Of a stretch of DNA of 64,000 bases, positions 16,452-52,005 are shown one piece after another. The notes below the pieces were generated by a model that saw only the letters and a program-made list of their open reading frames with translations, was not told the DNA's origin and did no database searches. Source of the DNA: Paenibacillus kyungheensis (GTDB taxonomy: Bacteria > Bacillota > Bacilli > Paenibacillales > Paenibacillaceae); contig NZ_CP117416.1 in the NCBI RefSeq assembly GCF_028606985.1, positions 4,961,001-5,025,000 of the forward strand. Reading direction: 5' to 3'. Position numbers and translations under genes: made by a program. Position 1 is the stretch's first letter. The number at the start of each line of letters is the position of its first letter.

Positions 16452-17209
16452 CGATTATTGCATTAACGCTGTCTTTATGTTTTGTGTTATTTGCTGTAGT
16501 GTTGTCTCGTTCGTTCAAGTTAGGTCTGGAAAAAGATGTGCTGATCGCCACATTACGAGCCACGATCCAACTGCTAATTATCGGCTATGTGTTGAATTTT
16601 ATTTTCGGCTTAGAGCAGTTATGGGTCGTCAGCTTATTTCTATTAGTGATGATCACTGTCGCGTCGCTCAATGTATCTAAAAAAGGAAAATCGGTTCCTT
16701 ATATGACGATCAAAGTGTTTTTGACACTGGTGATTGTGGAGATCGTAACACAGGCGCTATTGTTAGGATTTGGGATTATTCCGGCAACAGCACGTTATAT
16801 TATTCCAATCAGCGGTATGATTATCGGCAATTCTATGATTCTAGGCAGTCTATTAGTGACTCGGTTACGTTCGGAAGTGACGTTGCGACAGCGTGAAATT
16901 ATTTTGCTATTGTCGCTTGGAGGTACACCCAGACAAGCGATTTTGCCGGTGCTCAAAAGCGCTGTTCGTTCCAGTATGATTCCAACGATAGACGGACAGA
17001 AAACACTCGGTCTGGTGCAGTTACCTGGTATGATGACCGGACAGATTATCGCTGGCGCTGATCCGATTACAGCAGTGCGTTTTCAATTGTTGATTGTGTT
17101 CACGACGATGACTTCGGCGATTATTACAAGTATTTTGCTTAGTTTATTTATTGCGCCTAGCTTGTTTAACAAACAACAACAGTTGCAGACCGAACCGTTA
17201 GAACAATAG
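16448..17209 (+). CDS. fetB: Iron export ABC transporter permease, FetB (YbbM)-like
   Basis: A 253-residue integral membrane protein with about seven hydrophobic segments. Conserved stretches ATLRATIQLLIIGYVL, ARYIIPISGMIIGNSMILGSL and TIDGQKTLGLVQLPGMMTGQIIAGADPITAVRFQ, given here as separate blocks, are diagnostic of the UPF0014/FetB family. The start at 16448 makes an ATGA overlap with the ATPase stop, giving translational coupling; a longer in-frame ORF runs back into the ATPase gene but has no reason to be used. The terminator is shared with the converging EamA gene. Confidence 0.85.
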   Translation: MTIIALTLSLCFVLFAVVLSRSFKLGLEKDVLIATLRATIQLLIIGYVLNFIFGLEQLWVVSLFLLVMITVASLNVSKKGKSVPYMTIKVFLTLVIVEIVTQALLLGFGIIPATARYIIPISGMIIGNSMILGSLLVTRLRSEVTLRQREIILLLSLGGTPRQAILPVLKSAVRSSMIPTIDGQKTLGLVQLPGMMTGQIIAGADPITAVRFQLLIVFTTMTSAIITSILLSLFIAPSLFNKQQQLQTEPLEQ

Positions 17210-17220
17210 ATAGGCATACA

Positions 17221-17263
17221 AAAAAGACTCCTCAGTGCATGATGATGCGTAGAGGAGTCTTTG
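17221..17263. terminator. Bidirectional terminator between fetB-like and EamA genes
   Basis: AAAGACTCCTC / GAGGAGTCTTT hairpin with A- and T-rich flanks. Confidence 0.8.
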
Positions 17264-43206: not shown

Positions 43207-43896
43207 TTAACCGCTATCCAGTAACCCGTATTTTTTGCGAAAACGTTCTAATACTTTGATCCATCCACCTGCCAGAATCGCAAGGAAAAAGACATTGGAT
43301 AACGCATGAGCTAGATCAAAATAAAAGCTTTGTACATATACCGCTAGCACGGCTTTCCATTCCAAAGCAACTGCAAGATCGATCACAACCCACAGATTCA
43401 TAATCCAGCCAAATAAAAAGCCCCAGATCAGCCCGAATGCAAGTAAGCCGAGTCGCTTCTTCATCCACCATGTCTGACGAAGTAAACCTGCACTTACGCC
43501 CATCATCCCCCATGCAAACATCTGCCATGGTGTCCAAGGGCCTTGTCCGAAATAGATATTCGATACAAGCGCCGCCATCGCGCCCACAATAAAGCCTGCT
43601 TCAGAGCCAAATACCAGTGCCGACAGAATGACGATTGCCGAGACAGGCTTCACACTGGGTAAAGCGGCAAAAGGAATCCGGCTGACTGCTGCAATCGCCG
43701 CTAACATCGCCAGCAGAACCAATTCACGCGCTTCAAGCTTACGCCGTTCAAAGCGGACAAATAACGGCAACATCACCGCCAATAACAATACAAAACTGAG
43801 CAACATATAATGATCACTCAGCACTGCATTAGACAATGCCAATACTAAAATACTTAGACCTACTGCAATCATCAGCCAGAGGCGGGAACGCGCCAT
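43207..43896 (-). CDS. ECF transporter S component, likely cobalamin (CbrT-like)
   Basis: A 229-residue substrate-capture membrane subunit with about six to seven helices. LPSVKPVSAIVILSALVFG and FIVGAMAALVSNIYFGQGPWTPWQMFAWGMMG (two landmarks) are typical of ECF S components of the CbrT type. Start 43896 has GGAGG about 10 nt upstream and lies inside the ATPase gene end (25-nt overlap), so the genes are coupled. Last gene of an operon led by a cobalamin riboswitch, which makes vitamin B12 the most likely substrate. A corrinoid or other B12 precursor cannot be excluded. Confidence 0.85.
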   Translation of the reverse strand: MARSRLWLMIAVGLSILVLALSNAVLSDHYMLLSFVLLLAVMLPLFVRFERRKLEARELVLLAMLAAIAAVSRIPFAALPSVKPVSAIVILSALVFGSEAGFIVGAMAALVSNIYFGQGPWTPWQMFAWGMMGVSAGLLRQTWWMKKRLGLLAFGLIWGFLFGWIMNLWVVIDLAVALEWKAVLAVYVQSFYFDLAHALSNVFFLAILAGGWIKVLERFRKKYGLLDSG

Positions 43897-45560
43897 ACAT
43901 CCAGTACCTCCTCTGCGGTGAGTACACCTGGTAACCAATCACGTACAACTCGATTAACAGCTGTCGTATAAAATACATTTTCGCTAAAAAAGATCGAAGG
44001 TATATCTGTCGTAGTAATCATGCCATCAAATAACATCGCACAACGGCTGCTATAACTTGCTGCAAATTCTACATCATGAGTCACGATCACAATCGTATGT
44101 CCGGCTTGACGAAGCTCTAGTAATTGCTGGGCTAAAGCGATTTTGGCAAGTGGATCAAGCCCTTTGGTAGGCTCGTCTAATAGCAGAATATCTGGATTGA
44201 GCAGTAACACAATCGCTAACGCTGTTTTCTGCTGTTGTCCACCGCTAATATCATGTGGATGCTTCTGTTCTAATCCTTCTAATTGTAGTTGCTTCATCAG
44301 CTTCGCAATCGCAAGCTCTGGTTCTGCAATACCTGCATGTTGAGCTGCTGTCGATAATTCTTCTGCCACTGTATCATGACTGAAATACAGCAGTGGATTT
44401 TGCGCGAGATAGCCGATGTTTAGCTTATTGGCTTTTTTGATTGTTCCTCTTCGTGGTTGAAGTAGCCCTGCTAGCAATTGAAGTAGTGTCGATTTACCTG
44501 CTCCATTGCCTCCTAGAATCGCTAACATTTCTCCCTGAACAATCTGCAAATCTAACTTTTTCAACACTTCATCACTTTTCTTTTCATATTGAAAAGTGAC
44601 TTCACGACATTCTAGCAGTATCTGTTCTTTGGCAAAAGAAGTCGTAAGCGGTGCTGAATCAGCTAATGGTGCTACCGTGTCCGCCAAAGAGCGATCCCAG
44701 TCCAACGTCTGCAACCACTGCTTTCCTTCACGCACTGTAAAAGGAACAGCAGATAGAGTAGATAGAACAGGTACCTTTTCGGTTATTTGCTTGTTATGCA
44801 TCGTCCAGAATAACTGTGTAACCGAAGGCAAATATTTAAAATCATCGGGATCATGACGCTGTATCTGTTCACTCACTTCACGAGGAGAACCGCTGTATTT
44901 CAGCTTCCCTTTTTCCAACAGAATCATCTGATCAGCCAAAGGAATGACTTCTTCTAAGCGATGCTCACTAATAATAACAGTCGTTGAAAATTCTCGATTC
45001 AATCGGTAGACCATCGAAATAAATTCACGTGCCGCTACCGGATCAAGTTGTGAAGTCGGTTCATCCAATAACAGTAATTTCGGTTGTAACAGCAACACAG
45101 AAGCTAGATTAAGCAATTGCTTTTGCCCGCCCGATAATTCGTGAATTGGCTTGTATAATAAAGGCTCTAATCCAAAAAACTGCGCAATTTCTGCTAATCG
45201 ACTGCGCATCACTGGAAGAGAATAGCCCAGATTTTCCATCCCAAATGATAGTTCATGCCAGACTACATCCATCACAATACTGTTATCTGGATTTTGAAAA
45301 ACCATTCCGATCTCTTGCGCTGACTGATGTGCTGGTAATTCATTTAACATATTGCCGTTATAATAGATCGTGCCGCCGATTTGACCAACAGGCGTTAATT
45401 CAGGCTTGAGTTGGCTTAACAATGTCGTTTTGCCACAGCCTGACGCTCCGCACAATACAACAAAATCTCCTGCATGGACAGTGAAATGAATATCACTTAA
45501 TACCTGATGTGGTTCGTCAGGATAAGCAAAAGAAAGTTGATTTACTTGGAGTATTTCCAT
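43872..45560 (-). CDS. ECF transporter ATPase with two fused ABC domains
   Basis: A 562-residue protein carrying both ATPase halves of an ECF module. Domain 1 (about residues 1-240): Walker A LCGASGCGKTTLL, LSGGQKQLLNLASVLL, LLLLDEPTSQLD. Domain 2 (about 320-560): Walker A LGGNGAGKSTLL, ISGGQQQKTALAIVLL, ILLLDEPTKGLD. EcfA1 and EcfA2 are usually separate; this YkoD-like fusion suits a dedicated (group I) ECF transporter with its own S subunit. Start ATG 45560 (or 45569) follows GAAAGGA and lies inside the ecfT gene end. Powers uptake through EcfT. Confidence 0.92.
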   Translation of the reverse strand: MEILQVNQLSFAYPDEPHQVLSDIHFTVHAGDFVVLCGASGCGKTTLLSQLKPELTPVGQIGGTIYYNGNMLNELPAHQSAQEIGMVFQNPDNSIVMDVVWHELSFGMENLGYSLPVMRSRLAEIAQFFGLEPLLYKPIHELSGGQKQLLNLASVLLLQPKLLLLDEPTSQLDPVAAREFISMVYRLNREFSTTVIISEHRLEEVIPLADQMILLEKGKLKYSGSPREVSEQIQRHDPDDFKYLPSVTQLFWTMHNKQITEKVPVLSTLSAVPFTVREGKQWLQTLDWDRSLADTVAPLADSAPLTTSFAKEQILLECREVTFQYEKKSDEVLKKLDLQIVQGEMLAILGGNGAGKSTLLQLLAGLLQPRRGTIKKANKLNIGYLAQNPLLYFSHDTVAEELSTAAQHAGIAEPELAIAKLMKQLQLEGLEQKHPHDISGGQQQKTALAIVLLLNPDILLLDEPTKGLDPLAKIALAQQLLELRQAGHTIVIVTHDVEFAASYSSRCAMLFDGMITTTDIPSIFFSENVFYTTAVNRVVRDWLPGVLTAEEVLDVWRVPASG

Positions 45561-46420
45561 GATAGCCATTCCTTTCCTTCTACAATCACTGGAATCAGCA
45601 GATACAGACCAAAGCATAAATATAGTAGCCAATCCTGCATACTAAATACCATGGACTGCATACGCGGATAGATGACAGCTCGTCCCCATCCAAGCGCACT
45701 GCCGATCATAATAACGATAATCAATACAGACAGACATCCGGTTAACCAGCGATCTCTGCGATCCATACGATGGACTACATACGCTGTACGCTTGGTTGTA
45801 CCATATCCGCGTGCTTTCATCGAGTCTGCACTTTGGAGCGCTTCTTCTAATGACCAGACCAGCAGTACTTTGACAAGAGTCATCCCATCTCTCATACGCT
45901 TAGTGAGCGATCCTTCATGAACGCTGATTCCACGTGTACGTTGCACCAGCGTGATCTGAGTTAATCTTCGGCGCAATAATGGCACAAACCGTAATGCCAT
46001 CATCACTACCAGTGCACTTTGAGGCACAAATTTGGCAAACAAATACATAAATTTATCAGTCGTTACATTATAGTTATACGATAGACTGGTCAGCAGAATC
46101 AGCGTGAGCGATAACAACATAGTCACGCCATACAATACGGATTCCAACGTAATCGGCTGATCCATAAAGTAAAATAAAATATGTTGACCTCGGTGTGAAA
46201 TCAATGGATTAATCACTACAATCGCTATACCGATCAGCAGATAAAAAGGCAACATCCGCACAATAGTACCTGCATGCTTTTGTATACTAATTAACACAAT
46301 CAGCAAAATGATACCTGTCAGCAAAAAGACAGGATGAAATAGCAACATCCCGCTCAATAACAATCCTCCATAAAACAAAAACAATGTGATGGGATGCAGA
46401 GCACGAAATCCGCTGTTCAA
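45542..46420 (-). CDS. ECF transporter transmembrane subunit EcfT (CbiQ-like)
   Basis: A 292-residue membrane protein with five or more helices. ALRFVPLLRRRLTQITLVQRTRG and SMKARGYGTTKRT hold the two conserved Ala-Arg-Gly type coupling motifs that contact the ATPases (ARG in ADSMKARGYG). It starts with TTG, behind AGGAGC, in a 4-bp overlap (TTGA) with the stop of the DUF4430 lipoprotein gene. It links the S component to the double ATPase. Specificity comes from the S subunit and operon context. Confidence 0.9.
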   Translation of the reverse strand: MNSGFRALHPITLFLFYGGLLLSGMLLFHPVFLLTGIILLIVLISIQKHAGTIVRMLPFYLLIGIAIVVINPLISHRGQHILFYFMDQPITLESVLYGVTMLLSLTLILLTSLSYNYNVTTDKFMYLFAKFVPQSALVVMMALRFVPLLRRRLTQITLVQRTRGISVHEGSLTKRMRDGMTLVKVLLVWSLEEALQSADSMKARGYGTTKRTAYVVHRMDRRDRWLTGCLSVLIIVIMIGSALGWGRAVIYPRMQSMVFSMQDWLLYLCFGLYLLIPVIVEGKEWLSWKYSK

Positions 46421-47490
46421 TTTTTAGCTCCTATATCTTTTCCAAGATCAGTCGTATACAACCAGTCAATCTGATCTCCCGCTTGCACTTTGTATGCGCC
46501 TGCGCTCATATTTGGAAAATTGCCATTAACTTTGAACATCCATCCACTGGTAGGCCCTTCGTCAAATTCATACAGATTATCGATTCCTTCTACATAAGCG
46601 AACCCACTAGACCCTTGATACTCCATAGGTATTCCTTTGCTACGGGTTACACGCTTCAGTAAATCCAGCGCGCTTTCCCCTGCTTCTACTGGCACAGAGG
46701 TAGATCCCAGTATGTTACTGTCGCCTGTAATCGATAATGTAACTGTAGACGCTTGAGGTTGTGGCTTAGGTGCTGATGGTGTTGTAGGCGTTGCTGTTGT
46801 ACCCGAGCCTTTAGCTGTATTGCTAGATGGCTTGGATGTACTGGTTGATGGTTTGGAATCTTTTGTCGTTGTTTTGGTGTTGTCTTTGGTGCTCTTTGTA
46901 GATGTATCTTTGGTACTGCTTTTAGACTGATTGTCAGAAGTTGCTGTTGATTTTTGAGATGATGGAGTATCTGAATCACTAGATGTCGAACTGGATTTTT
47001 CTTTGGTATTACTGGTCGATGGTGTGCTAGTTGAAGTCGATGATTGGTCTTTGTTGGTATTTGTCTTCGTTGAAGCACCATCAGTCGTGTTCTCTTTGGG
47101 ATCAGCCGTCTTTTGTGTGTCGTTCATTGTCTGCTGATCTGCTTCTTTTGCCCCAGTAGAAGCTTGAGAATCAGTAACTGGTGTAGCGTCTTTATCTGTT
47201 GGTGCTGTCGCAGAATCGGATTGATCTTTAGTTACAGTCTTATCTTGAGAAGCAACTTCATCCGAAGTTGGCGGTGACTCTGTGATCGTAGCTGTTGAAG
47301 AATCGGTAGCCGATGATTGATTAGTCGGTGCAGTAGAAGAACAACCACTGATCAATAACAACGTCAACAACATCGCCATGATAGCTACTGGCAAGTGTGA
47401 ATATTTGCCTGAATGCTGAGCAGAAGTTGGTGTTGGCACAGTATGATGATGCTGTTGCTGACAATCTCTACGCGGATGTTGATTGCTCAT
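46417..47490 (-). CDS. DUF4430 lipoprotein, candidate membrane-tethered B12 binder
   Basis: A 357-residue lipoprotein: basic/His-rich start, hydrophobic segment LPVAIMAMLLTLLL, and lipobox ISGC (about residue 59). A 180-residue Ser/Thr/Lys/Asp-rich linker, strongly low in complexity, acts as a stalk across the wall. The C-terminal 105 residues form a DUF4430 domain (VTLSITGDSNILGSTSVPVE, SALDLLKRVTRSKGI, GPTSGWMFKVNG, YKVQAGDQIDWLYTTD), the fold found at the C-terminus of animal intrinsic factor and transcobalamin. Second in the B12-riboswitch operon; start behind GGAGGG. Probably hands cobalamin to the ECF transporter. Confidence 0.8.
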   Translation of the reverse strand: MSNQHPRRDCQQQHHHTVPTPTSAQHSGKYSHLPVAIMAMLLTLLLISGCSSTAPTNQSSATDSSTATITESPPTSDEVASQDKTVTKDQSDSATAPTDKDATPVTDSQASTGAKEADQQTMNDTQKTADPKENTTDGASTKTNTNKDQSSTSTSTPSTSNTKEKSSSTSSDSDTPSSQKSTATSDNQSKSSTKDTSTKSTKDNTKTTTKDSKPSTSTSKPSSNTAKGSGTTATPTTPSAPKPQPQASTVTLSITGDSNILGSTSVPVEAGESALDLLKRVTRSKGIPMEYQGSSGFAYVEGIDNLYEFDEGPTSGWMFKVNGNFPNMSAGAYKVQAGDQIDWLYTTDLGKDIGAKN

Positions 47491-47513
47491 CTTGATCGAT
47501 ACCCTCCTTACAT

Positions 47514-47562
47514 ACACAAAACGGAACGCTGGACACTATGATCCCCGTTCCGCTATTTGTGT
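47514..47562 (-). other. Intercistronic hairpin after the giant surface-protein gene
   Basis: ACACAAA-(TAG)-CGGAACG pairs with CGTTCCG-T-TTTGTGT around a 16-nt loop, with no T-run. It sits between the surface-protein stop (47594) and the lipoprotein start. It may protect the 3' end of the large mRNA or lower expression of later genes. Confidence 0.55.
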
Positions 47563-47593
47563 AATCTATTATTTCTTTTAGTTTACCGTAAAA

Positions 47594-50500
47594 TTAGTTC
47601 GCTTGCGCCATCTTCTGTACATTGATCGCCACCACAGCTGCCATCTCACGTGTTACTTTGGCTTGAGGATCAAATTTGTTATTGGCACCCACCATAATTC
47701 CATTATTTACTACAGCGCTGACTGCGCTACGTGCATAACTACCGATTTTCGCTTGATCTGCAAAAGAAGCAGTCGATGTGCCTTGAAGTGCAAATGCACG
47801 AGTTAACATCACAGCCATATCTTGACGGGATACCGGCTGATTTGGTTGGAATGATGTTGCGCTAATGCCTGTGATAATGCCTTTATTTTGGGCGGTCATA
47901 ATTGCATTATAATACCACTGATTAGCCGATACGTCTTTAAATGTCGATTTACTAGTAGAGGTATTTCCTGACTCTGTTGCTCCGGTCAAACGAACTACTA
48001 ATGCAGCAAATTGAGCACGTGTTAATTGTTGTTTAGGAGCAAATACAAGTTCCTGATCACTCACACCTAACATCAACCCTGCATCATAAGCACGATGTAC
48101 AGAATCAGAAGCCCATGCTGAAATGGTATTTTCATCTGCAAATGTAACTGTTGTACTTGTACCTGTATCTACAGGCTTAGTAGCAGTATTTGCTAAATTA
48201 TAAATCGTATTTCCACTGTTCATATACTGCTGATATGCAACCAGAGCAAGTAATGCTTGTTCGGTAGCAATATTGTCGCTTGCACCGCCTACCGTATGGC
48301 TATAAGTGCCATTAGTTTGACGGAACTGGCTTAGACGCGTAATTAGGTCACCATTGGACTTGGTAAAACGTGCGTCTTTCGGATTGATACCTGCTGATGT
48401 TAGCGCAACGATTACTTGAGAGACACTTTCGCTACTATCATCGTTATAAGCAGAATATCCTCCGTTAGCTTGCTGTTGTGCAGATAGATATTGAACAGCT
48501 TGGTCGATCGCTGTTTGGACTTTGGCCTGTGTGCGTTCAGGTGCAAGTGCAGCAACTGCCATTGCTGTCATATCTACACTGCTCGCTTCACCTGTTGCCA
48601 GTGGGAATCCACCATCGCTATTTTGCGCGCTTAACAACCATGTCACTAGCTTGTCTTGGTTCCATGTAGCTGTTGAAGGCATTGTATACTTATCACTATT
48701 TAGCGCAATCAAAGCAAAGATAGGTCCATTGGTTCCTTGAGCTGTCATTTTCTCATGGTTGACCATTTTGTCGATTAAGTTCACACCGCTCACAGATGTT
48801 GGATCGCCACCTGCTGCTTTGATCCCTAAAATCAATCGTTCCAGATCAGTCACTTTGCGGAATGTACCTGCTGATTGTTTGACTTGAGCTGTTGCATTAG
48901 TTAGGTAACTAGCTGGCAAAGTTCCACCTGCACGTACAATTCCTACTGCTTCCCATTCGGTTAATGGGTTATGAGAAAGCACATTTTTGACTGTTGCATT
49001 GATATCTGTTGTTAATTGTTGCTGGTCTGCTGAGCTTGCTAATACATCTTTGTTGATGACCGCATATTGGGTAAAGTGAGAGACTGCTCCGGTGATAATA
49101 CCAGTTTTGGCATCCAAAGCTGTTGGAACAGGTACCCATTGCTTAGTTTCTTCATTTAGCCACGCAATCGTCAGGCTAGACATTGTATTAGCATAGACTG
49201 GAATTTTGAATGAAAGGTATACAGGCTTTTCGAACTGTTGCCCTTTTGGCGTAAATTCATACAGACTGGATACAAGCTCTGGACGACTAGCCATTTCTTC
49301 TTCAATTCCAATCGTAGTGTTACTCTTCACACTATTGGCTGGCACAATAAATTGTACTTTACCTGCTGGATCAGCAAGTGTTGCTTTCTGATCAGCGGTC
49401 ACTTCTGCACTGACACTTACTTTTGCCGCAGATGCTAAAGCTTTGGCTATCGAATTGGCTGTACTAGCAGTCATTGGAGAACCCGAGTTGAGTACTGTAC
49501 TCGACTGCCCTGCTTCATTCACAGCCAGTTGATTATTGGATTTGATTTTCAGTTGAGACAATTCACTTTCTACTTGAGAAGGAATGATTGTCGGGAAAGG
49601 AACTCCCAGACTGTTATTCGCACTTCCTCCACCGCCACCAGAAACAGTAGCTGTGCCATCACTATAGCGCCATGCTAGATTGTCTCCAGCTTTTAACGTA
49701 TAGGCTCCGGCTCCTGTGTTCGGTTGTTGTCCATTGACTGTGTACACCCAACCGCTTAATGGCCCTTTATCAAATTCACTTAATCCATCAATAGCTGTTA
49801 CATAAGCAGTAGCACCGCTACCTCTGTAACTTACACGACTGGAACCTAACTGACGTAATAATACGCTAAAAGCAGTATCTCTATTTTGCAATGTAATCGA
49901 AGTCGTAGGCAGAATCGTACTATCACCTGTGACGGACATCGTAATCGTATTGGCAGTAGGTGTCGTTGTACTGCCACCTGTACTGTTATCGTTCGCTACA
50001 ATTAAGGTAGAAGTACTGCGTACAATCGAAGGTACATTGTTATTCTGGTATCCTGTCACAGCCACAGTATAGGAACCTGAACTCATTTTGTTAAATGAAG
50101 CTACACCCTGTGCGTTGGTTGTTACTGTTTGGTTACCGACTTGTACTTGTACATTTGCCGCAGGACTGACTACTTTGTCGCTAGTAAATGTATCGTTATT
50201 CCATATCCAATCGGCTTTTTGTACCGTAATATCGAAGCCACTGCTTGCTTTTGGCACCGCAGGCGATGTCGTTACAGACTCTACTAATGAGATTCCATAA
50301 GCTCCGAAATACACATATACTTGATCCGAAGGTTGTAATACAAATGCATCCATACCCACATCCGGTGATATCCACTGGCCATTACGTTTTACCGCGAACA
50401 ACCAACCACTAGATGGATCAAGATCACCACTATTGATGCCTGCGATTCCTGTTACATATTTACCAAATGAAGCAGATGCAATCGTTAGCTTTACTTCATG

Positions 50501-51667
50501 TTGTGAAGCAACATTTTGTAATGCATCTAGTGCATAGACAGCTTCAGTCACGCCTGTGGTTACAGGAGCAGAAGGGCCTTCTACGATAACACTTGCTTGT
50601 ACTTTGGTGCCCTGCCCTGGCTCAGGAGTAGGCGTTGGTTCTGGCTCAGGCTGTGGTGCTACAGGAGGATTAGGATTGGTATACAGCACTCCTGCATTTT
50701 TTGTATACAGATCATACGCTACTAATGCTCGTAATGCTTGATCTGTTGAAAAAGCTTTGTCCGATGCACTTGCAGTCAATTCATGACGGAAACCACCATC
50801 ACTATTTTGAAAAGCAAGTAAACGGTCGATTAACGATTTTCCATTTTTCTCAAATTGTACATCGGTTGGATCGATTCCAAATGAAGCTAGTCCAATAATC
50901 TCCTGTGCAATCGATTCACTGCTTGAATCGTCTGATTTTTGGATCAACCAATTCACTGCTTTTTGCCCTGCTGTCTGTACATCTGCACGATCTTTATACG
51001 GAGCTAGAGCACTAAGTGCCATTCCATAATAATCTGTCGACATTTGCGGGCCATTGATCGCTGCAACTACACTATCGATCAGTGTATCGCGTCCTTGCTT
51101 GGCATCATTAGGCACTTGATATGTACCAGAATCTAATGCGATCAATGCAAACATCGGGCCATTAACACCTTGTTGATTGATATTCGCATGATTGTATAAT
51201 TTTTCGATCAAATTACAATCGGAAATATTCGTAGCATTTAAACCTACCGATGCGCCTGCAATCGCCATTCGTGCTAATTCGGTTACCGAAGGCTTCGCTT
51301 GAGCACACAGATTTTTTACTTCTGTTCTTAAACTACTGTAGTAGCTAGCAGGAATGGCTTTGCCTGTACGTGCATAGCTGACTGCAATCCAATCGCCATC
51401 GACTCCACCATTAGCGTCGATATATTGCATCGCTTGCGTGATAGCCTGACCATATACAGATTGGGTGACGTTCGTATTGACGGTTGAATCGTTAGTAGAA
51501 GAATCATTCGAAGTGTAGACCGCTTGAGATACAGTGGTTGTCGTAGGATTCGGTTCATCTGCTGCATACGCAGAAGCAGAGAATACACCGGACGGTACTA
51601 ATGTAGCGATCGTAAGCACCAGTGTTAAGATCGTAGCGATCCACTGACGGGATAGAGATGATTTCAT
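47594..51667 (-). CDS. SLH-anchored giant with toroid-like and DUF4430 domains, candidate surface B12 binder
   Basis: A 1357-residue exported protein. Signal peptide MKSSLSRQWIATILTLVLTI... ends near ASAYA. In order: a prenyltransferase/transcobalamin-like helical toroid (about 60-320, with QGVNGPMFALIALDSGTYQVP and ESIAQEIIGLASFGIDP); DUF4430 copy 1 (about 350-460); a CarboxypepD-regulatory-like beta domain; DUF4430 copy 2 (about 580-680, GPLSGWVYTVNG); a ZU5-like beta region ending SHFTQYAVI; a second toroid (about 880-1150, TNGPIFALIALNSDKYTMP); three SLH motifs. The SLH domains bind wall polymer. First gene of the B12-riboswitch operon. Binding of cobalamin is inferred from fold and context. 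Confidence 0.85.
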   Translation of the reverse strand: MKSSLSRQWIATILTLVLTIATLVPSGVFSASAYAADEPNPTTTTVSQAVYTSNDSSTNDSTVNTNVTQSVYGQAITQAMQYIDANGGVDGDWIAVSYARTGKAIPASYYSSLRTEVKNLCAQAKPSVTELARMAIAGASVGLNATNISDCNLIEKLYNHANINQQGVNGPMFALIALDSGTYQVPNDAKQGRDTLIDSVVAAINGPQMSTDYYGMALSALAPYKDRADVQTAGQKAVNWLIQKSDDSSSESIAQEIIGLASFGIDPTDVQFEKNGKSLIDRLLAFQNSDGGFRHELTASASDKAFSTDQALRALVAYDLYTKNAGVLYTNPNPPVAPQPEPEPTPTPEPGQGTKVQASVIVEGPSAPVTTGVTEAVYALDALQNVASQHEVKLTIASASFGKYVTGIAGINSGDLDPSSGWLFAVKRNGQWISPDVGMDAFVLQPSDQVYVYFGAYGISLVESVTTSPAVPKASSGFDITVQKADWIWNNDTFTSDKVVSPAANVQVQVGNQTVTTNAQGVASFNKMSSGSYTVAVTGYQNNNVPSIVRSTSTLIVANDNSTGGSTTTPTANTITMSVTGDSTILPTTSITLQNRDTAFSVLLRQLGSSRVSYRGSGATAYVTAIDGLSEFDKGPLSGWVYTVNGQQPNTGAGAYTLKAGDNLAWRYSDGTATVSGGGGGSANNSLGVPFPTIIPSQVESELSQLKIKSNNQLAVNEAGQSSTVLNSGSPMTASTANSIAKALASAAKVSVSAEVTADQKATLADPAGKVQFIVPANSVKSNTTIGIEEEMASRPELVSSLYEFTPKGQQFEKPVYLSFKIPVYANTMSSLTIAWLNEETKQWVPVPTALDAKTGIITGAVSHFTQYAVINKDVLASSADQQQLTTDINATVKNVLSHNPLTEWEAVGIVRAGGTLPASYLTNATAQVKQSAGTFRKVTDLERLILGIKAAGGDPTSVSGVNLIDKMVNHEKMTAQGTNGPIFALIALNSDKYTMPSTATWNQDKLVTWLLSAQNSDGGFPLATGEASSVDMTAMAVAALAPERTQAKVQTAIDQAVQYLSAQQQANGGYSAYNDDSSESVSQVIVALTSAGINPKDARFTKSNGDLITRLSQFRQTNGTYSHTVGGASDNIATEQALLALVAYQQYMNSGNTIYNLANTATKPVDTGTSTTVTFADENTISAWASDSVHRAYDAGLMLGVSDQELVFAPKQQLTRAQFAALVVRLTGATESGNTSTSKSTFKDVSANQWYYNAIMTAQNKGIITGISATSFQPNQPVSRQDMAVMLTRAFALQGTSTASFADQAKIGSYARSAVSAVVNNGIMVGANNKFDPQAKVTREMAAVVAINVQKMAQAN

Positions 51668-51718
51668 AGGAGACCTTCTTTCTTGGTTTAGTAAAATAGA
51701 CATAACGACAGTACAACA

Positions 51719-51748
51719 TAAAAAAGCCACTTCAACGGAAGTGACTTC
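51719..51748 (-). terminator. Intrinsic terminator of the B12 riboswitch
   Basis: AGTCACTTC / GAAGTGGCT with a 4-nt loop and TTTTTT on the minus strand, between the riboswitch and the start codon at 51667. It is the likely off-switch formed when cobalamin is bound. Confidence 0.75.
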
Positions 51749-51844
51749 AAAGGCATAACAGCACAACCATTCACCACCTATGACGATACAGGCTTAGAAT
51801 GCTAGGACTGTTTCTCCTCTTTGCTCCGAAGATGATAGAAACGA

Positions 51845-52005
51845 TTGCTCGCAAGGCAGGTCTCCTGGCTATGCTTCATCACATCCTCCTACCTTCCCAT
51901 CGCTTCATGCAACAGTGGCTCGATTCAGGAGTTGTTCAGCATTTACAGTGGCGGGACCGCGCCGGAATACACCGGACTTCCCTTTTAAGCGGATACAAAA
52001 TCATA
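51845..52005 (-). promoter_or_regulatory. Cobalamin (B12) riboswitch
   Basis: On the minus strand the diagnostic elements occur in order: AAAAGGGAAGTCCGGTG, CGCGGTCCCGCCACTGTAA, GAGCCACTG, and the B12 box AGCCAGGAGACCTGCC (51855-51870). These match the conserved core of adenosylcobalamin-type aptamers. Limits at the P1 stem are approximate. A terminator lies downstream, so control is probably by premature termination. It governs the five-gene operon 51667-43207 and points to vitamin B12 as the transported compound. Confidence 0.95.

Follow-up and report, generated by a model that had tools for sequence, protein, structure and literature searches.

An operon of Paenibacillus kyungheensis predicted to capture vitamin B12 at the cell wall with domains resembling animal B12 carriers

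A stretch of 64,000 nucleotides from Paenibacillus kyungheensis (positions 4,961,001 to 5,025,000 of contig NZ_CP117416.1, assembly GCF_028606985.1), hereafter termed the window, carries on its minus strand, from 52037 down to 43207, a cobalamin riboswitch, a terminator and five co-directional genes. In this order, the genes encode a giant surface protein with S-layer homology (SLH) domains, a lipoprotein with a DUF4430 domain, and the EcfT, double EcfA and CbrT-like S component of an energy-coupling factor (ECF) transporter. Uptake of vitamin B12 (cobalamin) or of other corrinoids is very likely the function of this operon. Taken as a whole, the locus is quite likely best explained as a cobalamin-repressed uptake system, where the giant would capture the ligand at the wall, the lipoprotein would relay it and the ECF-CbrT transporter would import it. 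A B12-related role had been put forward in a preliminary description of this DNA, and it is supported by the predicted folds, the gene context with its riboswitch, terminator and gene order, the homology to CbrT, the conservation of the gene set and its co-distribution with the methionine synthase MetH in the genus.

The N-terminal toroid of the giant (toroid A) and the DUF4430 domain behind it form a unit of 396 residues (67-462), which was modelled by AlphaFold from 40 sequences with a mean predicted local distance difference test score (pLDDT) of 92.7 and a predicted TM score (pTM) of 0.72. In a Foldseek comparison of this unit with the Protein Data Bank (PDB), ranks 1-15 are occupied by transcobalamin, intrinsic factor and haptocorrin, which are matched over both domains at E-values of 2.7e-11 to 5.6e-9. 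Ranks 16-19 comprise isolated transcobalamin β domains and 3u7z, which we take to be a bacterial protein of the DUF4430 type, and the remaining matches have E-values of 2.4e-3 or weaker. The preliminary description had regarded folds unlike transcobalamin at the cobalamin pocket as incompatible with its proposal; at the fold level, the 15 best matches are B12 carriers. The unit and these carriers share the order of an α/α barrel followed by a β domain, and toroid A superposes on the α domain of intrinsic factor (2pmv_B) over 229 residues with a root-mean-square deviation (rmsd) of 3.3 Å (VIA Z 17.7).

The lipoprotein harbours a lipobox, read as ISGC in the sequence (Cys59 in the numbering of the longest open reading frame, ORF), a Ser/Thr-rich stalk of approximately 200 residues and a C-terminal DUF4430 domain at residues 260-359. 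The model of this domain was built from 49 sequences (pLDDT 88.1), and its best PDB match is the transcobalamin β domain 5no0 (E 6.8e-5, rmsd 2.7). Ranks 1-19 are all B12 carriers or 3u7z, at rmsd values of 2.5-4.7 Å. Compared directly with the B12 carriers, the domain yields Z 11.3-13.0 and rmsd values of 2.3-2.5 Å, and the best β-grasp protein outside the carriers and 3u7z scores only Z 7.9. In the comparison with transcobalamin that had been proposed as a check, the lipoprotein domain matches the β domain of the carriers. The structure 5np4 is, by its title, an isolated human β domain with bound cyanocobalamin, and hence a lone β domain can hold the ligand.

The soluble-ligand-binding β-grasp (SLBB) superfamily includes a transcobalamin-like clade, which is defined by the β-grasp fold and a β-hairpin inserted after the helix (PMC1796856). 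The modelled giant unit has this hairpin: helix 313-323 is followed by strands 328-333 and 336-342 ahead of the core strands. The lipoprotein model, where helix 24-34 precedes strands 39-42 and 49-53 and the first strands are not assigned, is consistent with the same arrangement. As judged from the models, the best structural relatives of the DUF4430 domains are transcobalamin-type β domains, and the hairpin leads us to equate this SLBB clade with Pfam's DUF4430; this equation is our own.

The features of the locus are compiled in Table 1. The aptamer exceeds the gathering threshold of 31.5 bits, aligns with model positions 1-189 of 189 and extends 32 bases past the end assigned to it in the preliminary description, which had correctly recognized a cobalamin aptamer and a terminator ahead of the genes. 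Beside it, there is no second Rfam match over threshold in the window and no second RF00174 match in the genome of 5.26 Mb. The terminator between the aptamer and the first gene is the presumed expression platform, and the architecture of the leader suggests a ligand-dependent response. Promoter-like sites are not enriched (23 observed, 21.8 in shuffles). The genes had been described as five coupled genes; this holds for the last four ORFs, which overlap when taken from the first start codon of each, and not for the giant and the lipoprotein, which are 76 bases apart.

Pfam and phmmer bear out the proposed identities of all five gene products. The S component, recognized by Pfam as belonging to the ECF S components, aligns with CbrT, the B12 S component of Lactobacillus delbrueckii characterized by experiment, over 173 residues (query 67-239, positions 6-178 of the chain of 182 residues), the next solved S component is 4hzu at an E-value of 0.083, and Pfam did not report the cobalt subunit CbiM for this protein. 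With EcfT, two EcfA modules and an S component the ECF module is complete for the CbrT type, and these homologies predict ATP-dependent transport of cobalamin. The giant begins at the ATG at 51667 and thus has exactly the 1357 residues counted before. Behind a hydrophobic N terminus, as read from the sequence, it is composed of toroid A, DUF4430-A, an Ig-like domain, DUF4430-B, a ZU5-like domain, toroid B and three SLH domains; a proline-rich linker connects toroid A to DUF4430-A. Pfam matches over the cut-off comprise SLH in three stretches, DUF4430 in two and one Prenyltrans toroid; “Ig-like” denotes Pfam matches under the cut-off, and “ZU5-like” is a label of our own. The earlier assignment of DUF4430 to both the giant and the lipoprotein is confirmed by Pfam in each, and that of helical toroids to the giant by the PF00432 match of toroid B and, for toroid A, by internal homology to toroid B and a modelled α-helical barrel. 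The SLH region resembles the S-layer protein Sap (6bt4, E 2e-12).

Table 1. Features of the predicted B12 capture operon (positions in the window; residues refer to the giant)
Feature	Position	Strand	Basis
Cobalamin riboswitch aptamer RF00174	51838..52037	-	cmscan 101.9 bits, E 2.4e-24
Intrinsic terminator (putative expression platform)	51723..51748	-	11-pair stem, 4-nt loop, U tail
SLH-anchored giant, 1357 aa	47594..51667	-	Pfam, domain mapping
Giant toroid A (α/α), residues 67-330	50678..51469	-	domain mapping; AlphaFold helices; 2pmv_B match
Giant DUF4430-A, residues 353-462	50282..50611	-	24.9 bits, over cut-off; model matches 5no0, 3u7z
Giant DUF4430-B, residues 576-675	49643..49942	-	68.8 bits
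Giant toroid B (α/α), residues 881-1155	48203..49027	-	PF00432 33.1 bits, cut-off 26.5; domain mapping
Giant SLH x3, residues 1173-1357, wall anchor	47597..48151	-	PF00395 E 4e-30
Lipoprotein	46417..47517	-	PF14478 (DUF4430) E 8e-20; model pLDDT 88.1
EcfT	45542..46420	-	PF02361 (CbiQ/EcfT) E 1e-10
Fused EcfA-EcfA' double ATPase	43872..45632	-	two ABC_tran stretches; ECF_ATPase_1 over cut-off
CbrT-like S component	43207..43938	-	phmmer to CbrT 6fnp_A, E 1.6e-17

The gene set is conserved in related bacteria. Of 29 loci surrounding matches to DUF4430 in genomes of this taxonomic family, picked by hand from the matches listed so as to spread over genera and including two from one genome, 25 contain EcfT, EcfA and CbrT-like genes (the others being L051, L067, L068 and L087), and RF00174 was detected in all 21 of the 29 loci that were scanned with Rfam. 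According to profiles, the typical giant of these loci consists of a toroid, one to three copies of DUF4430 plus an Ig-like domain, another DUF4430, a ZU5-like domain, a toroid and SLH domains; modules are missing in some proteins, and in some SLH lies ahead of the last toroid. Small surface proteins of 716 (L081) and 703 (L087) residues have the plan toroid-DUF4430-Ig-SLH, i.e., one intrinsic-factor-like unit and a wall anchor. A scan of named genomes with a toroid+DUF4430 alignment (A2) yielded 78 loci from the best 80 of 149 places, which span Paenibacillus, Oceanobacillus, Metabacillus, Neobacillus, Sporosarcina, Aneurinibacillus, Hazenella, Emergencia and Clostridium, including C. ljungdahlii, C. 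carboxidivorans, C. magnum and others. The genes ecfT, ecfA and cbrT are all present in 70 of these 78 loci, the toroid and DUF4430 share one ORF in 71, a separate small DUF4430 ORF occurs in 73, and the toroid ORF bears SLH in 48.

Riboswitches in the A2 loci were sought with a covariance model (R1) of 22 family riboswitches. A match was obtained in 74 of the 78 loci, and in 71 it ends at most 1 kb upstream of a same-strand operon ORF (median 161 bases), where an overlap of up to 200 bases with the longest ORF was allowed. Since R1 comprises only 24 base pairs and gives rough E-values, the 21 loci scanned with Rfam are the firmer evidence. Three of the four loci devoid of any R1 match (L141, L146 and L152) have their first operon ORF less than 250 bases from the end of the locus. 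Of 66 related leaders, hand-picked as matches upstream of the gene cluster, 64 have a terminator-like hairpin behind the aptamer, while mononucleotide shuffles give 8.4.

The surface proteins vary in anchoring and layout. An LPxT-type motif lies within the final 60 residues of 19 of the 38 toroid ORFs that lack SLH, and 18 of the 19 also have a hydrophobic tail; many Bacillus versions thus seem to be anchored by sortase. In L131, L133, L138, L144, L149, L151, L153 and other loci of the Bacillus type the DUF4430 domains precede the toroid and an LPxTA tail replaces SLH, which likewise suggests sortase anchoring. In the Clostridium loci L132 (C. carboxidivorans), L135 (C. ljungdahlii), L139 (C. 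ragsdalei), L142 (C. luticellarii) and L150 (C. magnum), toroid and DUF4430 are in part encoded by different ORFs, and each locus has two or three matches to the cobalamin riboswitch; L132 and L139 contain two CbrT-like genes each. Calidifontibacillus oryziterrae (L147, 6977-13168, plus strand) encodes a surface protein of 2063 residues with about nine weak DUF4430-like repeats before toroid-DUF4430-ZU5-like-toroid-SLH. In L065, a ZMP/ZTP riboswitch (17180-17259, minus strand, 55.2 bits) lies approximately 3 kb upstream of the riboswitch of the B12 operon.

The distribution of the operon within the genus points to a link with B12-dependent metabolism. DUF4430 occurs in 2 of 16 genomes (G000 and G009) and MetH in exactly the same two (Fisher p 0.008, which is only a guide, since related genomes are not independent), while MetE is present in all 16 and CbiC in none of them. 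Twelve genomes possess RF00174, namely the two operon genomes and ten sister genomes, where the riboswitch heads a BtuFCD-like cassette. Gene order was read in all ten cassettes, and Pfam was applied to five proteins from three loci; the cassettes are read as comprising a BtuF-type binding protein, an FecCD-type permease and an ATP-binding cassette (ABC) ATPase, with similarity to EcfA in ten of ten, and in none of these genomes does their riboswitch lie close to the best match for IlvE. No MetH, DUF4430 or CbiC matches were obtained in these sister genomes (L070-L079). The four genomes lacking the riboswitch (G002, G004, G007 and G015) are the closest relatives by IlvE, at 87-88%, whereas the remaining ten reach 62-64%. 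Each of the four has the same site bordered by ilvE and dapH, and a tblastn search with the operon proteins gave nothing above 35% identity in the fetched stretch; the ORFs between ilvE and dapH were listed for two of them. Among the six close relatives, riboswitch, operon and MetH are either jointly present (G000 and G009) or jointly absent. The ilvE-dapH interval (L188-L191) appears as one conserved site, and the pattern suggests gain or loss of operon, riboswitch and MetH as a functional unit. Across the family, 377 of 394 genomes contain MetH, and therefore MetH is informative only within the genus.

These patterns also bear on the nature of the substrate. It is rather improbable that the system serves another corrinoid or precursor, such as cobinamide or other cobamides, or cobalt, with proteins that resemble transcobalamin in fold only. 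CbrT takes up cobinamide as well (PMC5997447), and B12 “or its precursors” were allowed as ligands by Burroughs et al. (PMC1796856). Yet, among solved structures the S component resembles CbrT, Pfam did not identify it as CbiM, and within the genus the operon and MetH are found in the same genomes. Since CbiC is absent from the 16 genomes, a supply of cobalt for de novo synthesis would serve little purpose there.

Several observations weigh against the proposed interpretation, the first group of which concerns the structural comparison. Over both domains the carriers score VIA Z 16.5-18.0 with rmsd values of 13 Å or more, and the whole-chain superposition of the ligand-free model on transcobalamin is poor (TM approximately 0.42, rmsd approximately 14 Å). 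Of the two-domain plan of intrinsic factor and transcobalamin that had been proposed for the giant, the predicted folds and their order thus stand, but the modelled relative orientation of the domains does not match. Separated transcobalamin domains assembled only upon addition of cobalamin (PMC5599065); an open ligand-free model is therefore unsurprising, although this is no proof. At the level of sequence, the DUF4430 profile compared with the PDB places haptocorrin among chance matches (E 0.44), a profile of the alignment A1 retrieves the transcobalamin-2 β domain at an E-value of only 0.58, and HHalign of 128 bacterial toroids with four mammalian α domains, including intrinsic factor, reached a probability of 7.7% in an inconsistent register. 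A link to the animal proteins by sequence alone was rejected on these grounds, and, the profile comparisons having failed, we claim no conserved pocket residues. Residues D153 (VDTGAM) and Q252 (SIAQIL) of intrinsic factor are presumably B12 contacts; by eye only, positions D146 and Q244 of the unit (consensus DxTAM and ATEQAL) resemble them, which is no more than a lead.

Taken alone, the toroid is slightly closer to cyclases of the squalene-hopene type than to the carriers, with VIA Z 20.2 and rmsd 3.0 versus Z 17.7, and such proteins are also its nearest relatives by sequence. The toroids might accordingly be enzymes akin to terpene cyclases, or else structural repeats of an S-layer, with DUF4430 domains that act as generic β-grasp adhesins. 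We regard this as highly improbable: since they match in both domains, the B12 carriers outrank every listed cyclase in Foldseek, and the operon combines a cobalamin riboswitch with a CbrT-like transporter. The acid motif of squalene-hopene-type cyclases is DxDD, and it is absent by eye at the corresponding place in all 21 rows of alignment A1. Cyclase and adhesin functions, like cobalt transport, are ranked low.

A second group of such observations concerns distribution. A riboswitch match within 1 kb is missing in 7 of the 78 A2 loci, and the strict lipobox pattern was found in just 43 of 78 small DUF4430 ORFs (starts as listed, unrefined), so that not all of these proteins need be lipoproteins. 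DUF4430 occurs in 48 of 151 sampled genomes of the class, in many only as short open frames of about 130-200 residues, and hence the domain alone does not mark a B12 operon. One genome with a strong DUF4430 match (G080, 85% complete) has no match to MetH. Of the 394 family genomes, 173 were positive for DUF4430; eight whose best E-value exceeded 1e-10 were counted as negatives, so that 165 remained, and the p values ignore relatedness. DUF4430 and CbiC are not associated over the whole family (p 0.65). Outside the genus g9 the two tend to be mutually exclusive, which favours the uptake interpretation: CbiC occurs in 2 of 94 DUF4430-positive and 68 of 200 negative genomes, but among the 100 genomes of g9 the pattern is reversed (44 of 71 positives, 1 of 29 negatives). 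A general rule that the operon marks B12 auxotrophs was therefore rejected; it holds outside g9 and is reversed inside it. Evidently, B12 makers can keep the uptake operon, too.

The capture-and-relay mechanism that we favour would operate as follows. At low intracellular B12, the riboswitch would let transcription pass through the terminator. The giant, fixed to the cell wall by its SLH domains, would display clamshells of the intrinsic factor/transcobalamin type, and B12 or related corrinoids would be bound between toroid and DUF4430 domains. The lone transcobalamin-like β domain of the membrane lipoprotein, on its long stalk, would then take the corrinoid inward and pass it to the CbrT-like S component of the dedicated ECF importer. 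That the giant and the lipoprotein bind corrinoid is likely; for a sequential relay from giant to lipoprotein to CbrT, and for its direction, the chances appear about even.

Alternatively, ECF-CbrT might import on its own, and the giant and the lipoprotein might hoard corrinoid at the wall for storage, for denial to competitors or for salvage from lysed neighbours, with no direct hand-off. For Lactobacillus delbrueckii, transport of cobalamin was shown with purified ECF-CbrT, CbrT binds the vitamin with a Kd of approximately 9 nM, and the consulted part of that report names no extracellular helper (PMC5997447). One genome separates the giant from the transporter (L068 and L069, each with its own riboswitch), and L064 and L080 have lipoprotein and ECF genes without a giant in the fetched stretch. 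The former genome has the giant together with a toroid-SLH protein in one place, and the lipoprotein, ECF and CbrT genes in the other. However, a small DUF4430 ORF shares the locus with a surface protein in 73 of 78 cases, and where no giant is adjacent (L064, L069 and L080) the ECF genes are still accompanied by the small DUF4430 gene, as fits a relay. On balance we consider hoarding without hand-off unlikely, though as the main role of the giant it has to be kept in mind, since some genomes separate the parts.

Proteins of this general kind were predicted in 2007, which answers in the affirmative the earlier question of whether relatives had been described. Burroughs, Balaji, Iyer and Aravind (Biol Direct 2:4; PMC1796856) defined the SLBB superfamily, in which they included the C-terminal domain of transcobalamin and many Gram-positive surface proteins. 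They described SLBB-toroid fusions in either order, secreted or wall-anchored, whose operons also encode another SLBB paralogue and CbiO/CbiQ; the hosts usually lack B12 synthesis, and scavenging of B12 with later transfer to animals was proposed. The present locus shares the toroid+SLBB protein, the second paralogue and the CbiO/CbiQ operon, and it is therefore a member of that kind. The main text of that paper nowhere uses the terms riboswitch, S-layer, Paenibacillus or CbrT, and the consulted part of it offers no counterpart to the tandem arrays of the giant. What is added to the 2007 prediction is the riboswitch, the CbrT-like S component, SLH anchoring with tandem expansion, the two-domain structural match and the pattern of presence and absence.

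Other B12 systems share parts of this design. Mammalian intrinsic factor, transcobalamin and haptocorrin (2PMV, 2BB5 and 4KKI) have the same α/α barrel followed by a β domain; yet, identity to the bacterial unit is only about 12-15%, the bacterial modules are wall-anchored and often in tandem, and the modelled orientation differs. The BtuFCD-like sister cassettes are also riboswitch-led importers of the B12 type, but represent a classical ABC importer with a substrate-binding protein rather than an ECF transporter. BtuG of Bacteroides has a β-propeller fold, unrelated to that of the giant. Like the giant in its proposed role, BtuG sits at the cell surface and catches B12 on behalf of a transporter, but it is a lipoprotein partnered with the outer-membrane protein BtuB (PMC6143338). 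The ECF-CbrT transporter of L. delbrueckii (6FNP) likewise consists of a CbrT S component, EcfT and two EcfA modules; in the part of the report consulted, the Lactobacillus module is common to eight S components and no extracellular binder is named (PMC5997447), whereas the present module is encoded with its own S component, a fused EcfA and two predicted extracellular binders.

In the open-licence PMC literature, outside which most subscription papers lie, we met with no bacterial DUF4430/toroid protein that had been put to an experimental test, and there B12 binding by bacterial toroid+SLBB proteins has been a prediction since 2007. In this locus a single riboswitch leads a single operon, which some close relatives have and others lack; with MetH as a readout and a unit of 396 residues, it provides a clean test case. 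Somewhat better than even are the odds that Bacillota possess at their surface a complete equivalent of the route by which animal carriers deliver B12, where wall-displayed clamshells, often in tandem, a β-domain lipoprotein and a dedicated ECF-CbrT transporter serve extremely dilute corrinoid. As a class, ECF transporters are not known to use extracellular binding proteins. If our interpretation is true, an ECF importer can use extracellular binders and would gain a two-stage capture chain under a single riboswitch, exchangeable in evolution with BtuFCD. It would also explain how competition for B12 at very low concentrations is feasible for Gram-positive bacteria, and would bear on the idea, put forward in 2007, that bacteria of this kind were the source of the B12 carriers of animals (PMC1796856).

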